Below, in pieces: positions 4,757-28,342 of a stretch of DNA of 36,146 nt (positions are counted from its first letter, which is position 1; the number at the start of each line of letters is the position of its first letter). The notes beneath the pieces were generated by a model. It had not been told where the DNA came from. It ran no database searches and saw only the letters and a program-made list of their open reading frames with translations. Made by a program: the position numbers and the translations under genes. Location of the stretch: positions 1 through 36,146 of the IMG/VR virus record IMGVR_UViG_3300027659_000101; one strand, given 5' to 3'. The DNA comes from a virus.

Positions 4757-6419
4757 CGTTTATTCTTTCTGCAGATATGTACCTGCTGTTATTAATATTG
4801 TACGTGAAGAAGCTAGTACCAACCTGACCAGTGTACTTGAACCTTACCTTCCATCTGTGTATCTCAGTCTGGCGTGTCTCCATATTTCTGTAAACAGAGA
4901 TGCCATTGTCAGGAAGGTTGTAGAAGTGTGAGCTGTCACCGACATCGTATCCGCTTGGCACTTTATAAACACCACTCTTCAACTCAGTCATCTTCTTTGG
5001 ATGCGCTACTAAGAAGACATGCACTCCATAATTCCTAGCAAACCTGCTAACATCAGTCATCATGACCTTGATCTGGTGGTGACGTGTATCAGTCTGGTTG
5101 CTCATGCTCTTCTCAACTGTACTCATGTTGTCGATGACAAGGATGTTAATACCAAACCTCTTGACCATACCCTTTGCCTTCTCGATGATGCCATCAATAC
5201 TTAGGTCATTGTCATATAACCTGTAGTACTTGAAGTGATCATTCATAAATGGCATGTAGTCCTCGAGGTCTTGCTTGGTCATTCTCTCAGAGAACGGTGT
5301 TGTAAAGAAGCTCTTACCTGTAGCGATCTGGTACATATCTGACAGGGCAAAGGCTGTGTTAGCCTCCTCAGCTGAGTAGACAAATGACTTGAGTCCGTGC
5401 ATCGCAGCCAGCCTGTAGATAATATTCTTAATGAAGGTTGACTTACCATGACCGGGGATGCCAGTCACCAGTGTTACCTGACCGGGATGCCATATGAACT
5501 CATTATCCATCTCGTATCCTGCAGTATAACCATCAGGTGTACCACTCTCGAACAGCTGATACAATTCATCCTTGACACTAAATGCGTCATCGATACCGTC
5601 CACAGGGAATACAGTGGCTGACCTGTAACAGTTGAGCAGTGCTTCCTTACCTTCCTTGACTAGGGTTTCATTGGCGTCCTTGTGTGGAAACTCTATGATG
5701 TAGCAGTTGTCCTTACCTAATCTTCTGGCAAGTTCATTCCTGAGAGCAATGCCTGCCTCGTCCATGTCGGTGGCTAGGTATATTTTCTTTCCATCGAATA
5801 AATGGATGAACTCCTCTAACCAGTCTAGCTTTTGAGACCCCTTACTAGCTCCGTTAGGTACTGATATAGCAGTCTTAACTCCTGCTTCAAAGAAAGACAT
5901 TGCATCGATCTCTCCCTCCGTAATAACCAGTTCAGTGGACGAATTATCAAGTACAACATCAATGCCGTAAGGACCAAGCATAGCACCACTAACCAACTTA
6001 AAATTTTTATTAGAATCCCTATACTTAATGTTATAAATCTCTCCATTGTAGATGTAGTTAAAATGAATTGTTCTTACCTCTGCTTCAACTTGAGGCATGT
6101 AGTCTAAACCTTCTGATAATCTGTATCTTAAAAGAGTTTGATTGCTAATCCCACGACTTGCAAACCAGTCAATAATAGGCTGAGACAAATTTTTCAGTTC
6201 GGGGGTTGGCTTAACATACTCTTTCTTCGGTGTCACCATCTTCACAGTTCCTTTAAATTCGCAGTGATGGCAATTGTATATGCCCTCTTCGATCAGCACA
6301 CTCAAGCACGGATCGCTCTTATGCTTTCTTGTATGGGAACACTGAGGACATGGGACCTTTACGTTACCGTGCTGTCCTGTCCTTACATTAATCCCCAAGG
6401 ATTGTAGTTGCTGAATCAT
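4671..6419 (-). CDS. Bifunctional primase-helicase, 582 aa
   Basis: This is a T7 gp4-type replication protein that makes primers and unwinds the fork. N-terminal zinc ribbon: CPQC (24-27) and CHHC (50-53). TOPRIM primase core: VITEGEIDAMS (about 167-177) with the catalytic Glu, then IYLATDMDEAG (about 217) with the metal-binding Asp pair. RecA/DnaB-type helicase: Walker A TGIPGHGKST (about 319) and Walker B ILVIDNMS (about 426). The length matches the family. No separate loader is obvious except the adjacent winged-helix protein. It is the core of the leftward replication operon. Confidence 0.93.
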   Translation of the reverse strand: MIQQLQSLGINVRTGQHGNVKVPCPQCSHTRKHKSDPCLSVLIEEGIYNCHHCEFKGTVKMVTPKKEYVKPTPELKNLSQPIIDWFASRGISNQTLLRYRLSEGLDYMPQVEAEVRTIHFNYIYNGEIYNIKYRDSNKNFKLVSGAMLGPYGIDVVLDNSSTELVITEGEIDAMSFFEAGVKTAISVPNGASKGSQKLDWLEEFIHLFDGKKIYLATDMDEAGIALRNELARRLGKDNCYIIEFPHKDANETLVKEGKEALLNCYRSATVFPVDGIDDAFSVKDELYQLFESGTPDGYTAGYEMDNEFIWHPGQVTLVTGIPGHGKSTFIKNIIYRLAAMHGLKSFVYSAEEANTAFALSDMYQIATGKSFFTTPFSERMTKQDLEDYMPFMNDHFKYYRLYDNDLSIDGIIEKAKGMVKRFGINILVIDNMSTVEKSMSNQTDTRHHQIKVMMTDVSRFARNYGVHVFLVAHPKKMTELKSGVYKVPSGYDVGDSSHFYNLPDNGISVYRNMETRQTEIHRWKVRFKYTGQVGTSFFTYNINNSRYISAERINDGTDKTKFIGQPITKNDIQSFASLAGSV

Positions 6420-6972
6420 GTTTTTGTTTATTTATCCAATAGTGATTGGCATCGTCTAAATATTTGAGGAACTTGCCGGAGAAGATTGTCGATGGTCTGT
6501 TGTACTCCTTCATCTTATCTTCAACACCCCATGTCTCTTTCTTGTGTGCTATCACACTCTTGAAGTGGGTGATGGTAAGCTTCGGGTTTGCCTTCAGCAC
6601 CTTCTTCACCATCTCAATGTTGTTGTGCAGCTGGTACTTGGTTTCGTTCACCTCGTTAAAGTATTCAATCACTTCCTTAGCGAGATCTTCCGAGATGGTT
6701 ACGACAACAACGTCTTCTCCATCATGCGCCAAGTACCATTTGGTAGTAGGGTAGTAGAAACCATTAACAACCTTCTCAACAAGTCCCTTATCGATCAGGT
6801 CCTTCATGCTCTGTGTGACTGTACCGGAGTTCAGTCCAAGCATTTCAGACAGGGCGGATACACCAGTGCCCTTCATCAGGGGATAGTGCTGTGCACATGC
6901 ATGGCATACCATGTACGTGACGGGGTGGAGGTTTAACCTCTGCCTTACCGAGTGGTCTATTAATGATATCAT
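6388..6972 (-). CDS. Winged-helix replication initiation protein with Phg_2220_C-like end, 194 aa
   Basis: The N-terminal half (about 1-85) is a MarR-like winged helix (SALSEMLGLNSGTVTQSMKDLIDKGLVEKV), which should bind DNA. The C-terminal half fits the phage conserved C-terminal domain found in replication proteins: EYFNEVNETKYQ, then LTITHFKSVIAHKKETWG and YNRPSTIFSGKFLKYLD. Such proteins often recognise the origin and help load the helicase. It lies directly upstream of the primase-helicase with a 32-nt overlap and next to a 4-nt-coupled small gene. Origin position is not known. Confidence 0.8.
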   Translation of the reverse strand: MISLIDHSVRQRLNLHPVTYMVCHACAQHYPLMKGTGVSALSEMLGLNSGTVTQSMKDLIDKGLVEKVVNGFYYPTTKWYLAHDGEDVVVVTISEDLAKEVIEYFNEVNETKYQLHNNIEMVKKVLKANPKLTITHFKSVIAHKKETWGVEDKMKEYNRPSTIFSGKFLKYLDDANHYWINKQKHDSATTILGD

Positions 6973-9225: not shown

Positions 9226-9230
9226 AATGA

Positions 9231-9241
9231 TCTATTATAGA
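9231..9241. promoter_or_regulatory. Operator-like palindrome O1
   Basis: TCTATTATAGA is a perfect inverted repeat with one central base. The same core recurs at 19193-19203 and 19921-19931. It lies in the divergent intergenic switch between the early operon and the repressor gene. Confidence 0.55.
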
Positions 9242-9255
9242 GAGTATGTTTAACA

Positions 9256-9293
9256 AATTATTAGTTTTCCTAATAATTATGCACATATATTTG
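9256..9293 (+). promoter_or_regulatory. Repressor promoter with 9-bp dyad and DnaA-box match
   Basis: The -7 box TATATTTG is at 9286-9293, about 30 nt before the repressor ATG. Upstream, AATTATTAG (9256-9264) and CTAATAATT (9270-9278) form a perfect dyad with a 5-nt spacer over the -33 region. TTATGCACA at 9277-9285 matches the DnaA-box consensus TTWTNCACA. The dyad could be an autoregulatory operator. Confidence 0.6.
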
Positions 9294-9324: not shown

Positions 9325-9627
9325 ATGAAAAAAGAACAAATAGGTAAAAGACTAAGAGAGGTTAGAATAAATGCTAGATTAACTCAGAGAGAAATGGCTA
9401 CGCTTGTAAACTTAGCCACTGGTTCTATAGGAGCTATGGAGAATGGGTTATATACACCTAATTTTGACGTTCTTAGAGTGATTCATAATAGACTAGGAGT
9501 TTCATACGACTATATAATAGATGGTCTAGAATCGCCTGATAATACGGCTAAATTGATTGAAGAAAATACTAGACTGAAGGATGAGCTGGATAGAATGAAA
9601 AAGATCGTAGACAAGTTGGTTAAATAA
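9325..9627 (+). CDS. Cro/CI-type HTH repressor, 100 aa
   Basis: A small lysogeny regulator. Residues about 5-60 form a classic HTH_3 domain (LREVRINARLTQREMATLVN, then SIGAMENGLYTPNFDVLRVI). Residues about 76-99 (LIEENTRLKDELDRMKKIVD) form a coiled coil that should make it a dimer. There is no LexA/S24-type cleavage domain, so RecA-driven self-cleavage is unlikely and induction must work another way. It is divergent from the early operon, with palindromes O1 and the 9-bp dyad between them. It very likely represses the leftward early promoter. Confidence 0.88.
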   Translation: MKKEQIGKRLREVRINARLTQREMATLVNLATGSIGAMENGLYTPNFDVLRVIHNRLGVSYDYIIDGLESPDNTAKLIEENTRLKDELDRMKKIVDKLVK

Positions 9628-10056: not shown

Positions 10057-10293
10057 TTAGGGGGTGAAGTTCTGCTCGAAGTATTCATCTGCGGTGGGCC
10101 ATTTTTCGTTGTGTAATAGACCAATGACAACAAAATCAATAGCATCACGATAGGTACTCTTAATTACTTCTTCCTCATCATCAAGCATCATTTCAACTTC
10201 AACAATCAGGTCGATATCGTTCTTCTCTTTGGCGTATGCTAGTACTTTTCTCAGTGGACTTAACGCCATATAATCAATTAAACATTTTTCCAT
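10057..10293 (-). CDS. Acidic unknown protein, 78 aa
   Basis: It overlaps the integrase end by 20 nt. An internal ATG at residue 9 (MALSPLRK, 10269) would give no overlap and may be the true start. It is strongly acidic around residues 30-45 (VEVEMMLDDEEEVIKS) and helical. Followed by a terminator, it is the last gene of the integrase transcript. It could be an excisionase-type partner by position, but no HTH is visible. Confidence 0.7.
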   Translation of the reverse strand: MEKCLIDYMALSPLRKVLAYAKEKNDIDLIVEVEMMLDDEEEVIKSTYRDAIDFVVIGLLHNEKWPTADEYFEQNFTP

Positions 10294-11560
10294 AGTAGTC
10301 GTTTATTTCTGATTTGTAATACTTTTCAACGTGTCCAACGTACCTCTCGAACGCATTCGAGTTGGTGGTATGTCCGCTGGCGAACTTGATGAACCTCTCA
10401 GGAACCTTGTTGTATATCATCGTGGTGATGGCAGTTTTCCTCAGTAGGTGAGGGTGTACCCATTCCCATAACTGCTTGGTAACCACGTGTTCATTGCCTT
10501 TTATATCAAGTTCTGCAACAGACACGGTCTCGTGCATATCGTCATACATCTTAAATAAAACTTTGATATTATCGTACACAATATCCCTATTCGGTTCAAT
10601 GCTATATATTCTTCCCAGCCTTGTCAGATTGTCCCTGTAGATATTGGAAAGGAATGGGGGTAGTGGCATCTCTGAATAGACTCCTGTCTTTTCGTTCTTC
10701 TTTCTCATGAAGACGGTATCACGGGTGAATGTGAAATCATTTTCTTTCAAACTCATTGCATCACCAATGCGAAGGGTAGTGATAAGGATAGTTGCCGATA
10801 ACTCCCAAACAAACCTCAATTCTGGTGTCAGTTTAGGGTAAACCTTATCATCATCATTAAGAAATTTCTTAACGAAGTCAGAGGGGAGTACTATGATAGC
10901 TCTCTCATGTCCACTGAGTCTTGGTACTTTTGGCAACATAAAAAACAGGTGATCTGCCCAGTACTTAGCCATGACACCAGTCATATTCATCACCTCTGAC
11001 CTGCTTTTTACTCCAAGGTTACGCTCCATAAGATAACTCTCGTATTTCTTCCAATACTGTGCAAACTGATCAGCCACTTCACGCTTCTTGATTGATTCCC
11101 ATGTTGGGTCGATATGGAAATCTCGCAGATCCAGTGGTCGGTAATAGTTAGAGAACTCGGTTAGCAAGCCTGCAACGTACTTATAAAGGGTAACAGAAGC
11201 CTTACTGTATTTCCTTTTAGAACTGCTCAATAATTCACCCTTAGCCATACCAGCTACATACTTTCTCAGTAGATCATGTAGGAGGTAAGTTTCGCCTTGT
11301 GGAAGTTCGGGGGTGAATCTATTAAAGTGCTCCTTAACCAACTTAAAGTCTCTATGTTCGAGATATAAGTCTGTTATGCTGGATTGACACTTGGACAGCT
11401 CTGCATTGAGCTTAGCTACCTCAATGGTTTTGCCTTTAAAAGTACCGTTGAACTTGTGGTGTGGCTCTATATCGATTCCTGTAGAGAGGCGGTAAAAGTC
11501 CTTGCCATCAGATATTCTGGCTTGAACTACTGAACCTCTTGCATAAAACGTTATCTTCAT
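10274..11560 (-). CDS. Tyrosine integrase, 428 aa
   Basis: A site-specific recombinase for phage integration and excision. The N-terminal 90 residues fit an arm-binding domain of the Bacteroidota type (MKITFYARGSVVQARI). A SAM-like core-binding domain follows (about 90-210). The catalytic domain shows the first Arg in TTLRIGDAMSL (about 267), HPHLLRKT (His-x-x-Arg, about 370), SGHTT and the nucleophile Tyr in FERYVGH (about 409). The set looks intact. The non-coding stretch upstream with inverted repeats and a tRNA-like sequence is the likely attP. Confidence 0.93.
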   Translation of the reverse strand: MKITFYARGSVVQARISDGKDFYRLSTGIDIEPHHKFNGTFKGKTIEVAKLNAELSKCQSSITDLYLEHRDFKLVKEHFNRFTPELPQGETYLLHDLLRKYVAGMAKGELLSSSKRKYSKASVTLYKYVAGLLTEFSNYYRPLDLRDFHIDPTWESIKKREVADQFAQYWKKYESYLMERNLGVKSRSEVMNMTGVMAKYWADHLFFMLPKVPRLSGHERAIIVLPSDFVKKFLNDDDKVYPKLTPELRFVWELSATILITTLRIGDAMSLKENDFTFTRDTVFMRKKNEKTGVYSEMPLPPFLSNIYRDNLTRLGRIYSIEPNRDIVYDNIKVLFKMYDDMHETVSVAELDIKGNEHVVTKQLWEWVHPHLLRKTAITTMIYNKVPERFIKFASGHTTNSNAFERYVGHVEKYYKSEINDYYGKMFN

Positions 11561-11612: not shown

Positions 11613-11622
11613 GTTTTCCACA
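11613..11622 (+). promoter_or_regulatory. GTTTTCCACA site
   Basis: One of four exact copies in the window, all on the plus strand and all between genes. It matches DnaA box TTWTNCACA. Here no good -7 box follows at +30, so it may serve recombination or replication rather than transcription. Confidence 0.4.
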
Positions 11623-11775: not shown

Positions 11776-11806
11776 TGCAAAGTAATTGATTCTATTGACT
11801 TTGCAA
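11776..11806 (-). promoter_or_regulatory. Candidate integrase promoter within an inverted repeat
   Basis: On the minus strand TTG (11806-11804), 18 nt, then TTACTTTG (11785-11778) approximates the Bacteroidota -33/-7 promoter with one mismatch in the -7 box. The TGCAAAGT/ACTTTGCA inverted repeat overlaps both boxes, so a bound protein (integrase or a regulator) could control it. It lies about 215 nt before the integrase ATG. Confidence 0.4.
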
Positions 11807-11866
11807 AGGTTATGCAGAAATTTATCCTCAATTTTCAGCACACTTTAACGTTTGAAATTGAATATG

Positions 11867-11947
11867 CCAAGGTGGTGGGAGTCGAACCCACAATTCCCGA
11901 TTCGGGCGTGTTTCCACAGGTCGAATGACCATTACACTACACAATGG
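11867..11947 (-). other. tRNA-like element, degenerate or remnant
   Basis: On the minus strand there is a perfect T-arm (GTGGG, loop TTCGACT, CCCAC) and a D-arm-like hairpin with loop TAATGGT. Outer arms CCATTGTG/CACCTTGG pair at 6 of 8 positions. Between the D and T arms lie a GAAA-capped hairpin and CCCGAATCGGG, but no proper 7-nt anticodon loop on a 5-bp stem. It is therefore not a convincing functional tRNA. It may be a captured host tRNA 3' part used as att site, or a larger relative of the nine elements at 13897-17112. Confidence 0.5.
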
Positions 11948-11951
11948 TTGG

Positions 11952-12296
11952 TTAGATAGCCAAGGCAGACTTCATCAGGTTCATCATCTTATCTACTGAC
12001 AATATCTCGGTGGTTGAAATGGCGTGTCGAGATAGCTTGTCGAAGATCTGAGCATACTCATCGTCAAACCTATACCTTGAAGGGTGGTCTCTCAAGTGGT
12101 GCATGACCGTGGTGTGGTGGAATCCCATCAAGGTTCCAATCTGCACCAACTTCAGTCCGTAATACTTGTGCATCGCATTTACAATGGCGCACTTAACCGA
12201 TACGATTTCCTTCTTTCTGCTTCTCGTGTATCGGATATCAAGTCCGCTAATTTCCTTTGCCTTGTCGCACACATCTTTATATATTTGCTCCTTCAT
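11952..12296 (-). CDS. DnaA domain IV-like DNA-binding protein, 114 aa
   Basis: Residues about 25-75 (RKKEIVSVKCAIVNAMHKYYG, then IGTLMGFHHTTVMHHLRDH) match the DNA-binding domain IV of DnaA. The HHTTV stretch corresponds to the DHTTV signature that reads DnaA boxes. There is no AAA+ ATPase domain, so it is a stand-alone DNA binder. I chose the ATG at 12296 because GGAGG (12301-12305) stands just before it, and it fits the 20-nt overlap with the upstream gene. It may compete with host DnaA or regulate phage promoters carrying GTTTTCCACA. Confidence 0.8.
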   Translation of the reverse strand: MKEQIYKDVCDKAKEISGLDIRYTRSRKKEIVSVKCAIVNAMHKYYGLKLVQIGTLMGFHHTTVMHHLRDHPSRYRFDDEYAQIFDKLSRHAISTTEILSVDKMMNLMKSALAI

Positions 12297-13691: not shown

Positions 13692-13877
13692 TTAATATGT
13701 TTGTTTGATGTGATTCAAGACTCTTACAAAAAAGTACAATTGATTGATGTTGGTTATGGCATCATCTTCGGTAGACAAGTCATGGATAGATTCGCTTATT
13801 AATCTTTTAACCTTTTCAACACCATACATATCAGTATACTTTTTAGCATAGTCTCTGACTTCTTTATTGAATTTCAT
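13692..13877 (-). CDS. Unknown protein, 61 aa
   Basis: Helical and charged (KFNKEVRDYAKKYTDMYGVE). Element E1 ends 19 nt before its ATG, followed by the leader CTCATCAAAAACTACACAA. No family recognised. Confidence 0.7.
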   Translation of the reverse strand: MKFNKEVRDYAKKYTDMYGVEKVKRLISESIHDLSTEDDAITNINQLYFFVRVLNHIKQTY

Positions 13878-13896
13878 TTGTGTAGTTTTTGATGAG

Positions 13897-13942
13897 GAAC
13901 TGCGGTCGGTTTCGCTCCGACTTCGGTCATACCTCGCAGTTC
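13897..13942 (-). promoter_or_regulatory. Structured leader element E1
   Basis: Minus-strand RNA: 8-bp outer stem GAACTGCG/CGCAGTTC, 13-nt linker, then hairpin GTCGG-AGCGAAA-CCGAC directly against the outer stem. A CCCCCGAAC motif overlaps its 5' end. Confidence 0.7.
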
Positions 13943-13951
13943 GGGGGTGGG

Positions 13952-14281: not shown

Positions 14282-14302
14282 AGTTGTGTGGTTTTGATGA
14301 GC

Positions 14303-14343
14303 AACTTGTGGCAGAGTCGAACTGCCATGCGACCATCCAAGTT
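14303..14343 (-). promoter_or_regulatory. Structured leader element E2
   Basis: Outer stem of 6 bp (AACTTG/CAAGTT), 10-nt linker and 6-bp hairpin TGGCAG-TTCGACT-CTGCCA on the minus strand. The loop TTCGACT is a canonical T-loop sequence. The outer stem differs from the family consensus on both sides, a compensatory change. Confidence 0.7.
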
Positions 14344-14350
14344 CGGGGGA

Positions 14351-14548: not shown

Positions 14549-14684
14549 GGTCGCTTTTTTTAAATGAGTCAATGATTTTTTCTCCCGTACTATTGTCAAT
14601 GTAGACCACCCAGTCTCCTATAGTTACATATAGGCAGTCCTCAGACCTTACATCGATTTCGATGTCTTTAATTGTTACTATCAT
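14541..14684 (-). CDS. Unknown acidic protein, 47 aa
   Basis: Start chosen at 14684 because AAAACACACCAA, the array's conserved leader, precedes it, and element E3 ends 18 nt before. The sequence MIVTIKDIEIDVRSEDCLYV suggests a small beta fold, acidic. Function unknown. Confidence 0.65.
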   Translation of the reverse strand: MIVTIKDIEIDVRSEDCLYVTIGDWVVYIDNSTGEKIIDSFKKSDHE

Positions 14685-14702
14685 TTGGTGTGTTTTAGTG
14701 AG

Positions 14703-14748
14703 GAACTGAGGGTGGTAACGAACCACCTTCGCACATTGCTCTCAGTTC
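14703..14748 (-). promoter_or_regulatory. Structured leader element E3
   Basis: 8-bp outer stem GAACTGAG/CTCAGTTC, 13-nt linker, hairpin GGTGG-TTCGTTA-CCACC. This is the one member of the classical set with GAACTG that lacks the CCCCCGA motif at its 5' end. Confidence 0.7.
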
Positions 14749-14754
14749 TGATTT

Positions 14755-14987: not shown

Positions 14988-15179
14988 TTAGGCTGGCACA
15001 TGAGTTGCCAAGTACTTTTGGATGGATTCATATTCTCCAATATTCTGACCATTATCTACATCCCATATTATCCAATCCTTATACATTGCCTTTAATTCTT
15101 CAAAGAGGGCATCATAAGTCATATCCGTGGTGTGGTAGACATCGAATAACTTGCTAAAAAGAAAAAATGAGTAATTCAT
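14988..15179 (-). CDS. Unknown protein, 63 aa
   Basis: It starts MNYSFFLFSKLFDVYHTTDM, with an aromatic N-terminus that is not long enough for a clear membrane span. The middle is acidic (IIWDVDNGQNIGEYESI). Leader CATCAAAACACACTCAC and element E5 precede it by 19 nt. Function unknown. Confidence 0.7.
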   Translation of the reverse strand: MNYSFFLFSKLFDVYHTTDMTYDALFEELKAMYKDWIIWDVDNGQNIGEYESIQKYLATHVPA

Positions 15180-15198
15180 GTGAGTGTGTTTTGATGAG

Positions 15199-15244
15199 GA
15201 ACTGATGGCGGTAGCGAACCGCCTACGCTCTTTGCTATCAGTTC
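15199..15244 (-). promoter_or_regulatory. Structured leader element E5
   Basis: 8-bp outer stem GAACTGAT/ATCAGTTC, 13-nt linker, hairpin GGCGG-TTCGCTA-CCGCC. CCCCCGAAC overlaps its 5' end and touches the stop codon of the upstream gene. Confidence 0.7.
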
Positions 15245-15250
15245 GGGGGA

Positions 15251-16838: not shown

Positions 16839-16857
16839 GTGTGTGTGGTTTGATGAG

Positions 16858-16900
16858 GAACTGCTAGGCGAATCGAACGCCTATACAACCATTGCAGTTC
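16858..16900 (-). promoter_or_regulatory. Structured leader element E8
   Basis: 7-bp outer stem GAACTGC/GCAGTTC, 10-nt linker, 6-bp hairpin TAGGCG-TTCGATT-CGCCTA. The loop is the perfect tRNA T-loop TTCGATT. CCCCCGAAC overlaps the 5' end. Confidence 0.72.
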
Positions 16901-16908
16901 GGGGGGGA

Positions 16909-18027: not shown

Positions 18028-18333
18028 ATGTTTGCAATGATTAAAAATTGTGCAATTGTTACTGATTTGATTGGGCAAAAATGGGCGCATCATGTTGTTG
18101 TTATCCTGCATCATGCACCACGCAGATTTAACAAAATTTCGCAGATATTACCTCAGATTTCTCCTACCATTTTGAGTGGGTTGTTGAAGAAATTAATGGA
18201 TTCTGGAATCTTATGGCGTGATGGTGATTTGTATACTATGACCACGTTTGGGGAAGAGATAGCAAAGCACGTTATCATCTATAACAAGTCGGTTGCAGAG
18301 ATATCGAAAAAAATGCAGTTCGGGGGATTATAG
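18028..18333 (+). CDS. HxlR-type winged-helix regulator, 101 aa
   Basis: A transcription regulator. TDLIGQKWAHHVVVILHHAP followed by RRFNKISQILPQISPTILSG and LKKLMDSGIL is the HxlR signature, although the usual N-terminal cysteine context (CP-x) is reduced to one Cys at residue 8. The start could also be ATG 18037. Its C-terminus (MQFGGL) is encoded by GCAGTTCGGGGG, the half of a leader element, and its stop overlaps the convergent gene. It is divergent from the 68-aa gene. The target may be the TGTCAT sites between them. Confidence 0.8.
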   Translation: MFAMIKNCAIVTDLIGQKWAHHVVVILHHAPRRFNKISQILPQISPTILSGLLKKLMDSGILWRDGDLYTMTTFGEEIAKHVIIYNKSVAEISKKMQFGGL

Positions 18334-18651
18334 CCTCTTGTTCAAGAGATACCGCCTGATAGCAGATAAGAACTCCCTACCACGGGGAGAGATAGAGAAC
18401 CGACCAGCATCTAACTGAATCAGTTCGTAGGAATGTAGAGCATGAACACTACGGGAGATGGTAGCATTGGTGATAGGATATCCCAACTTGGATGCATGGC
18501 GAAGGAGTGATGCTTGGGAGGTATTCATGGGAAGGTATTGGATGCTATAGATAGCGAAGACCTCATTCGGGGTGAGGGGTGGGATGCCATACCTCTTGGA
18601 TGCAACCTCAACTGCTGAGGGAAGGAGGAACACAATTTTCTGAATCTTCAT
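18328..18651 (-). CDS. Winged-helix DNA-binding protein, 107 aa
   Basis: Start chosen at ATG 18651. LTPNEVFAIYSIQYLPMNTS, then ASKLGYPITNATISRSVHAL and GRFSISPRGREFLSAIRR give a MarR-like winged helix at about 25-95. It overlaps the HxlR-type gene tail to tail by 6 nt. Two adjacent small regulators outside the repressor switch suggest a second control layer, perhaps for the small-gene array or the rightward operon. Confidence 0.7.
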   Translation of the reverse strand: MKIQKIVFLLPSAVEVASKRYGIPPLTPNEVFAIYSIQYLPMNTSQASLLRHASKLGYPITNATISRSVHALHSYELIQLDAGRFSISPRGREFLSAIRRYLLNKRL

Positions 18652-19446
18652 ACACAATAGTTAGGTGAGGTTAAAGAGGAGGGGGTTATTGGGATTACGC
18701 ACCAACGTACGCCATCATCCAAATCCCATGCGCATTCCCGTTTGGTATTGGTCTTATCCCGTTTCATTTCCCCCATCATTTGCACCCGTGATGGGATGGT
18801 TTTGTGCGCATCGTATGTATAACCGATTAGGTGTCAGCCATTACTGAATCGTCCGTACATAATGGTGCATTAAATATGTGTGATAAAACCGAATCCAAAA
18901 CGGCTAAATTGACCCCCACCCGATGCCCGATTTCGACTCCCCATTTGACCCCATACCCACCTGTTTATATGCATTACCCCACCTCCATTTCCACACATAA
19001 GTCTAATCCAGATCTTCCTCCAACCCGTGACGAATAGTCACGACTTTCTGAATAGTGCTGTGAGTCTATTACAGACTATTCTAGGACATCAATTGATCTG
19101 GCAACATGTTACCATTTCCAGACTCACACAGCAAAGATAAACGGGGCAATCTCGATAATATTGTGTTTTCCACAATTGAGGATAACTCTAAATCTATAAT
19201 AGAGTGTTTAGTAATTTCGCCTTCTTGGTTCCACCTGCTAGGGTCGGGGTCCATTCAAAACCCCAAGCTATGTTTATCCGAGGACGGAATGTTTAAGCTT
19301 TTAGCAGGAGCGACAGAGATCTAACTCTCTGCTGGGGTTACCCAGAGCTGCGTGACGGAGTCGATGAACTCAGGTGCAGTTTTCTTCGCAAAGGGAAACC
19401 TTTTAAGCGAAGCTTTATTCAGGAATCTCTAAATCTAGGTGCAGTT
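18652..19446. other. Region without convincing genes
   Basis: About 795 bp. Short open frames exist on the plus strand but look random and run through regulatory signals. Visible content: a C-run-rich stretch at about 18908-18975 (G runs on the minus strand), hairpins at 19026-19042 (CGTGAC/GTCACG), 19333-19350 (CTGGG/CCCAG) and 19386-19414 (CTTCGC-AAAGG-GAAA-CCTTT..GCGAAG), GTTTTCCACA plus operator O2 near 19165-19203, and AGGTGCAGTT twice (about 19372 and 19438). It probably holds the control region of the rightward operon. Confidence 0.5.
19165..19203 (+). promoter_or_regulatory. GTTTTCCACA site and operator-like palindrome O2
   Basis: GTTTTCCACA is at 19165-19174. Exactly 30 bp after its first base begins TATAATAG (19195-19202), an imperfect -7 box covered by the palindrome TCTATAATAGA (19193-19203). 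The layout suggests a rightward promoter that the repressor can block. Confidence 0.45.
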
Positions 19447-19862: not shown

Positions 19863-19930
19863 TTGTAACCAGACAGATGGAGTATGACGGTCCTGAGGAA
19901 AACTATGAGGATAACTTCTCTCTATTATAG
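19850..19930 (+). CDS. Possible acidic peptide, 26 aa
   Basis: MDELIVTRQMEYDGPEENYE and a short end. It overlaps the HNH end by 13 nt and its stop codon lies inside operator O3. Very acidic. It may be real, but length and position give only modest support. Confidence 0.35.
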   Translation: MDELIVTRQMEYDGPEENYEDNFSLL

Positions 19931-19933
19931 AGA
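19919..19933. promoter_or_regulatory. Operator-like palindrome O3
   Basis: TCTCTATTATAGAGA, a perfect 15-bp palindrome that contains the same 11-bp core as O1 at the repressor switch. It lies 21 bp before the GroES-like start codon. Confidence 0.5.
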
Positions 19934-19953
19934 ATGCTAAGTATCTTAGCATT
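19933..19953 (+). promoter_or_regulatory. Perfect hairpin abutting a start codon
   Basis: AATGCTAAG, loop TAT, CTTAGCATT: 9 perfect pairs ending at the base before ATG 19954. As RNA it would lie inside the ribosome-binding region of the GroES-like gene; as DNA it could be a further operator. Confidence 0.6.
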
Positions 19954-22305: not shown

Positions 22306-22351
22306 CACCCCCTGTTTTCCACACCCCCGAACTGGCGCTAATTTAACTTTG
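22306..22351 (+). promoter_or_regulatory. Late promoter P2
   Basis: CACCCCCTGTT (22306-22316), overlapping GTTTTCCACA (22314-22323), stands 27 nt before the perfect -7 box TAACTTTG (22344-22351). ATG follows at 22357, so the mRNA is likely leaderless. A CCCCCGAAC motif lies inside the promoter (22324-22332). Confidence 0.7.
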
Positions 22352-28304: not shown

Positions 28305-28342
28305 GTTTTCCACATCATTGTAAATAAGGTAATTGAATTTTG
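28305..28342 (+). promoter_or_regulatory. Late promoter P3
   Basis: GTTTTCCACA (28305-28314) lies 30 bp (first base to first base) before the -7-like box GAATTTTG (28335-28342), the same spacing as in P1 and P2. A TTG at 28318-28320 could serve as -33. The leader contains AAAACCAAATAAA, repeated before the gene at 30737. Confidence 0.55.

Follow-up and report, generated by a model that had tools for sequence, protein, structure and literature searches.

Conserved paired DnaA-box-like sites suggest a probable lysis-lysogeny role for a stand-alone DnaA domain IV protein in a clade of phages

Introduction

What use does a phage have for the DNA-binding domain of DnaA when the ATPase of that protein is missing? 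Many phage annotations list a stand-alone DnaA domain IV protein with no role known for it, frequently under 'DNA replication initiation', and our literature search found no paper giving a phage protein of this kind (here DnaA-C) a function. One such protein is encoded at positions 11952-12296 (minus strand) of the IMG/VR virus record IMGVR_UViG_3300027659_000101, whose 36,146 bases, analysed as a whole, are referred to as the window. An earlier note, made from the letters of the window, had proposed that the protein is a transcription regulator, perhaps the late activator, which acts through the decamer GTTTTCCACA, and that it may also compete with host DnaA. Here, we analysed the gene, its product and its candidate target sites in the window and in related phages.

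Results

DnaA-C is a stand-alone DnaA domain IV encoded beside the integrase

The leftward early region of the window encodes a primase-helicase, YqaJ, ERF and a tyrosine integrase (10274-11560, minus strand; PF00589, E 3.8e-10), and the rightward region carries HNH, terminase, portal and SU10-type capsid genes. A CI-like repressor with HTH_19/HTH_3 domain matches is encoded at 9325-9627 on the plus strand, and a replication-initiation-like protein, separate from dnaA-C, at 6388-6972. The phage has a Bacteroidota-type host. Close relatives measure 54-69 kb, and the window is thus probably a fragment.

The dnaA-C product, 114 aa with an extra C-terminal helix, matched PF08299 (Bac_DnaA_C) with E 5.3e-7 and 30.0 bits, just under the curated cut-off of 31.5, which several of its distant relatives exceed. 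Its AlphaFold (AF2) model reached a pLDDT of 86.6, with helices including residues 79-112, and the ten best PDB matches in Foldseek were all DnaA (TM up to 0.82 on target, rmsd 2.0; 3pvp, TM 0.81; 1j1v, TM 0.76 on target). The match covers the DnaA C-terminal domain only, and the AAA+ ATPase domain is absent from the ORF. Of the base-contact residues of DnaA, R399, D433, H434 and T435 (PMC7561715), the equivalents of R399, H434 and T435 are kept; the D433 position holds H in this subclade, whereas several sister phages have D there. The product had no sequence match to a known RDF family, its fold being that of DnaA domain IV instead. These results indicate that the ORF is a genuine stand-alone DnaA domain IV, and the statement in the earlier note that the phage encodes this domain without its ATPase was thus borne out by both the Pfam match and the fold.

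Searches with TerL, capsid and DnaA-C collected about 25 related contigs, although an IMG/VR search with the single DnaA-C sequence gave no matches and the DnaA-C proteins of the relatives were recovered there with an alignment query. The DnaA-C profile matched in 21 of the 27 records searched; three of the remaining six (G035, G038 and G045) end before that region and the other three (G046-G048) are distant. In 19 of the 21 contigs where it was placed, the window among them, dnaA-C adjoins the integrase gene; in G039 the two are 4 kb apart, and in G032 no integrase was found. Prophage searches of GTDB genomes with TerL and with the integrase returned no clade member from which attB and attP could be read. 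The integrase search there found only integrases of about 29-36% in Flavobacteriales and Chitinophaga MAGs, and DnaA-C profile matches in two such genomes were frames of 478-488 aa, the size of full DnaA.

Repeated intergenic elements were also observed on the minus strand (11870-11945, 13873-13947, 14293-14349, 14679-14753, 15175-15249 and 16849-16905). They resemble a tRNA acceptor stem plus T-arm with little or nothing between, and are possibly RNA processing signals of the early transcript; ARAGORN and Rfam gave no matches to them or elsewhere over the window.

The decamer at the 22314 late promoter mostly overlaps another element

The decamer GTTTTCCACA occurs at 11613, 19165, 22314 and 28305, each time on the plus strand and outside plausible genes, compared with 0.13 copies expected in shuffles, none of which reached four. 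At 22314 and 28305 it lies exactly 20 bp upstream of a Bacteroidota-type -7 box, TAnnTTTG, which is found at -12 to -5 in Flavobacterium (PMC9723704). The observation in the earlier note of four copies, all plus-strand and intergenic and two of them at promoter spacing, was therefore confirmed. The broader class TTWTNCACA, to which that note had assigned the decamer, showed no enrichment in the window (5 vs 4.3 expected).

The two promoters on the plus strand read ACCCCCTGTTTTCCACA-N20-TAACTTTG (22307-22351) and GTTTTCCACA-N20-GAATTTTG (28305-28342), the latter with a weak 12-bp partner box, TTGTAAATA, at 28318-28326. When orthologous late promoters were aligned, ACCCCC was constant, 37 bp ahead of the -7 box (ACCCCC-N31-TAnnTTTG), whereas the CCACA half at the equivalents of 22314 varied (CCACA, TAAGG, ACAGG, TTAGC or CCGGC) and was missing in many relatives that retain the dnaA-C gene. 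At its fixed spacing the ACCCCC element matched 21 times in 22 phages; no other spacing gave more than 7 matches. The alignment rules out GTTTTCCACA as the conserved late-promoter element, and the decamer at 22314 therefore mostly reflects overlap with a different element. G002 keeps the box at 28305 as TTTTCCACA, next to a tandem partner, and G001 has an altered form of it. Across all IMG/VR contigs the composite GTTTTCCACA-N20-TAAMTTTG had six matches. Three belong to members of this clade, each of which has DnaA-C; the contigs of the other three lack both DnaA-C and this terminase. Of the other two copies, the one near the integrase start (11613-11622) is not conserved in relatives as a DnaA box, and the one at 19165 is regulatory in position, as half of the conserved inverted pair described below.

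A composite late promoter of the form ACCCC-N32-[TA]AnnTTTG was also seen at 332-376, and in relatives such promoters mostly stand directly before late genes. Separately, the first gene of the leftward early operon (18328-18657, minus strand) is common to most relatives and has no Pfam or PHROG match; its product has a winged-helix look by eye and is a candidate regulator, for example of ACCCCC promoters.

Paired DnaA-box-like nonamers are conserved at four positions

DnaA-box-like nonamers stand in pairs or triplets at four places in the window. S1 (9265-9285, plus strand) is a tandem pair with a 12-bp period, TTTTCCTAA-taa-TTATGCACA, in the repressor promoter. S2 (11810-11842, plus strand), in the gap between dnaA-C and the integrase gene, is a triplet with the same period, TTATGCAGA-aat-TTATCCTCA-att-TTCAGCACA. 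S3 (19166-19185) is an inverted pair, TTTTCCACA-AT-TGAGGATAA, which contains the decamer of 19165, and S4 (19894-19914, read on the minus strand) is a tandem pair, TTATCCTCA-tag-TTTTCCTCA, upstream of ORF 19954. The earlier note had placed TTATGCACA in the repressor promoter at 9277, which proved correct, the word being half of the conserved tandem pair; the partner boxes and the arrays at 11810 and 19894-19914 were absent from it. The match at 19914 falls in a small ORF, and chance was discarded as its explanation because it is conserved in relatives.

In a genome-wide scan, S2 was the top DnaA-box triplet of the whole window, and the best triplet likewise lies between dnaA-C and the integrase gene in G001, G002, G003 and G037. 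Compared with dinucleotide shuffles, tandem period-12 pairs were enriched both in this gap (Fisher 1.3e-11, 12 phages) and in the repressor promoter (Fisher 9e-14, 11 phages), and a tandem pair was found upstream of ORF 19954 in 10 phages (2.6e-12; Z 4.31 at period 12). These values serve as guides, as inspection preceded the choice of regions and the phages, being related, are not independent. Stronger evidence comes from the period-specific and permutation controls. Period 12 exceeded all other periods in the fixed-region tests of the gap and the repressor promoter, and genome-wide there were 34 pairs at period 12 vs 5-11 at other periods. At the three tandem sites permuted nonamers fell short of the true nonamer, the one equal-scoring 'permutation' being the true word itself. 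The inverted pair with its 2-bp spacer had a meanZ of 3.87 and is present, with changed bases, in 7 phages. When nine less related phages were included, the pair signal persisted in the gap and the repressor promoter; no clear pairs were seen in the distant clade members G029, G030, G042 and G043, nor in the scanned parts of distant DnaA-C phages. Seven TerL-related phages without DnaA-C showed no excess of period-12 pairs.

Single DnaA boxes were mildly enriched in the int/dnaA-C gap, where pairs are what stands out, and a de novo 8-mer search of the gap returned mainly AGTTATCC, operator-like and AGCACACC words. The word TTWTCCTCA has five copies in the window, four of them within S2-S4, vs none of the reversed control. 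The 56 box units collected give the DnaA-box form TTWT-C-C-A/T-C-A (consensus TTWTCCWCA), towards which the table is biased, its units having been picked by hand from sites found with a DnaA-box query. The link to DnaA boxes made in the earlier note was thus largely right as to box-like sites in regulatory positions, but not for the class TTWTNCACA, which stands at chance. Replacement of D433 by H goes with loss of A at box position 7 (Fisher 0.005, confounded by descent), a slight coupling that may favour the phage protein as the reader of the sites.

The pairs hold fixed places relative to -7 boxes and operator-like palindromes

The -7 box of the repressor promoter, TATATTTG, lies at 9286-9293 (plus strand). 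In S1-type pairs the end of the second box falls anywhere from 1 bp inside this -7 box to 6 bp ahead of it, and the pair therefore occupies the whole -33/-12 spacer. At the rightward leader promoter (-7 box at 19212-19219) the inverted pair ends 26 bp ahead of the -7 box in 6 phages, this one included, and 27 bp in a seventh, and at the ORF 19954 promoter (-7 box at 19942-19949, 27 bp downstream of S4) the tandem pair ends 26-29 bp ahead; the -7 boxes of these two promoters, imperfect in sequence (e.g. TAATTTCG, TATCTTAG), were identified by eye. In most phages both promoters carry an operator-like palindrome between the boxes and the -7 box, here TAAATCTATAATAGAGTGT (19189-19207) and TCTCTCTATTATAGAGAAT (19917-19935). 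A similar palindrome, ATGATCTATTATAGAGAGT (9227-9245), lies near the repressor promoter, and the consensus, ACTATCTAWWATAGATAGT, is likely the repressor operator. At the ORF 19954 promoter of G003 and G005 a different palindrome, CTACGA-N6-TCGTAG, was observed.

The leftward early promoter, with its -7 box TATCTTTG at 19132-19139 (minus strand; conserved as GCRAAGATAAACGG in relatives), starts from the same region as S3 and should drive the operon that ends in dnaA-C. In the other direction, a long 5' leader (19226-19445, TGGTTCCACCTGCTAGGG...) upstream of the HNH and structural genes is strongly conserved in several relatives; Rfam gave no match to it, and it may be a structured or antitermination RNA. 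Just before S2 lies an inverted repeat, TGCAAAGT-N14-ACTTTGCA (11776-11805), a possible candidate for the integrase core site. It was equalled in 6 of 200 shuffles, and its spacing is shared with G001 and G049 and not with five others (3 of 8 phages).

Discussion

Starting from the established gene and fold, and from four classes of paired sites with established spacing, position and conservation, we propose that DnaA-C probably acts in the control of lysis and lysogeny and not in replication. In its specific form, as a lytic-phase switch regulator that binds paired DnaA-box-like nonamers in the manner of Apl and Cox, the proposal is one towards which we lean with modest confidence. It draws on the DnaA domain IV fold with its retained base-contact residues, on the adjacency to the integrase gene, on nonamer pairs that are conserved at a constant distance to the -7 box, and on a layout of repeats and operators that matches that of Apl and Cox, with repeats here lying near int. 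The protein would be expressed from the repressor-controlled leftward early operon and would bind the TTWTCCWCA nonamers as pairs. Its occupancy of S1, just upstream of the repressor -7 box, would block repressor synthesis; at S3 and S4, at about -60 to -39 and just upstream of the repressor operator, it would activate the rightward operon or help its de-repression; and at S2, in the gap beside the integrase gene where an excision factor would bind, it may aid excision or control int. Activation of the rightward promoters is probable, while the sign of regulation at each single promoter and the excision role at S2 are predicted from the placement of the sites, as is the reading of the pairs by phage DnaA-C rather than host DnaA.

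Other readers and other targets have to be weighed against this. Host DnaA could occupy the paired boxes and link the switch to host replication, with the phage domain IV competing or modulating as HdaB does. HdaB of Caulobacter (cited in PMC7561715), reportedly a small protein related to DnaA domain IV that acts on the RIDA process, would be a precedent for a DnaA-related protein that affects DnaA regulation. The consensus of the nonamers agrees with the DnaA box in general, and host DnaA activates lambda pR (PMC3698200). However, the sites are degenerate and differ among phages, box position 7 varies with H or D at D433 (an association confounded by descent), and the control phages without DnaA-C have no pair excess; we consider a host reader unlikely. 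A role of DnaA-C in replication, in which it would mark the phage origin at the int/dnaA-C gap arrays and help load the primase-helicase, would agree with its homology to an initiator and with an AT-rich gap that holds DnaA-box triplets. Yet the same paired sites stand at three promoters beside repressor operators, the AAA+ domain is absent, and the phage has its own primase-helicase together with a separate replication-initiation-like protein, and such a role seems very unlikely.

The late activator suggested in the earlier note, acting through GTTTTCCACA at the late promoters of 22314 and 28305, is very unlikely in that form: CCACA is lost at orthologous promoters despite the presence of DnaA-C, and ACCCCC with its 37-bp distance remains, even though in several phages the -7 box follows at exactly 20 bp, three of the six IMG/VR composite matches fall in this clade, and TTTTCCACA is kept at the G002 equivalent of 28305. 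What stands of that suggestion is a transcription regulator, which fits the anatomy of the sites best, with other key targets than the decamer at late promoters. The sequence evidence supports the repressor promoter, the dnaA-C/integrase gap and the two rightward promoters with repressor operators as putative targets, and the geometry at -60 to -39 makes activation of the rightward operon, with its HNH and structural genes, possible, so that the idea of a late activator may hold in substance at these other sites. The competition with host DnaA that the earlier note also raised may likewise occur.

For the lytic-phase switch regulator favoured here, the conserved paired DnaA-type sites at switch promoters offer a concrete, testable function for one clade, and as the exact candidate targets (S1-S4) are named, the test is small. 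An Apl/Cox-like job could, moreover, be carried out by an unrelated fold. Through such paired sites a phage switch might also sense host replication. A broader generalization, that phage orphan DnaA-domain-IV proteins form a class of lysis-lysogeny regulators reading paired DnaA boxes, is doubtful; since these boxes are open to host DnaA as well, competition between phage and host DnaA would then tie the switch to the state of host replication.

Among known proteins, the stand-alone DnaA C-terminal proteins of Flavobacterium muminvirus and of Pelagibacter, Nonlabens and Tenacibaculum phages likewise have this fold and consist of the domain alone, but they share about 20-34% identity with DnaA-C, lie away from the integrase where inspected, and had no paired sites in the parts scanned. 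HdaB is similar in being small and related to DnaA domain IV, and differs in being bacterial, RIDA-related and without phage switch sites. Lambda pR is a phage promoter under DnaA-dependent control (PMC3698200); there, full host DnaA acts, whereas this phage encodes its own domain IV. The closest likeness in layout is to 186 Apl and P2 Cox, whose sites are imperfect direct repeats spaced by about one turn that cover the lysogenic promoter and also occur at att, while the lytic promoter is covered by repressor operators distinct from the Apl/Cox sites (PMC7498355). As in those temperate phages, a small HTH protein of DNA-binding type is encoded with a tyrosine integrase, and repeats stand over the lysogenic promoter (here in 11 phages) and near int, apart from the repressor operators. 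The differences are the DnaA domain IV fold with its DnaA-box-like nonamer, a period of 12 bp instead of 10-11 bp, repeats placed by reference to int, with a putative role in excision, additional sites where an activator would sit at rightward promoters, and the back-to-back arrangement of the switch promoters in this phage. By sequence and by fold DnaA-C is outside the RDF family; the job proposed for it is of a known kind, and the protein is a DnaA domain IV.
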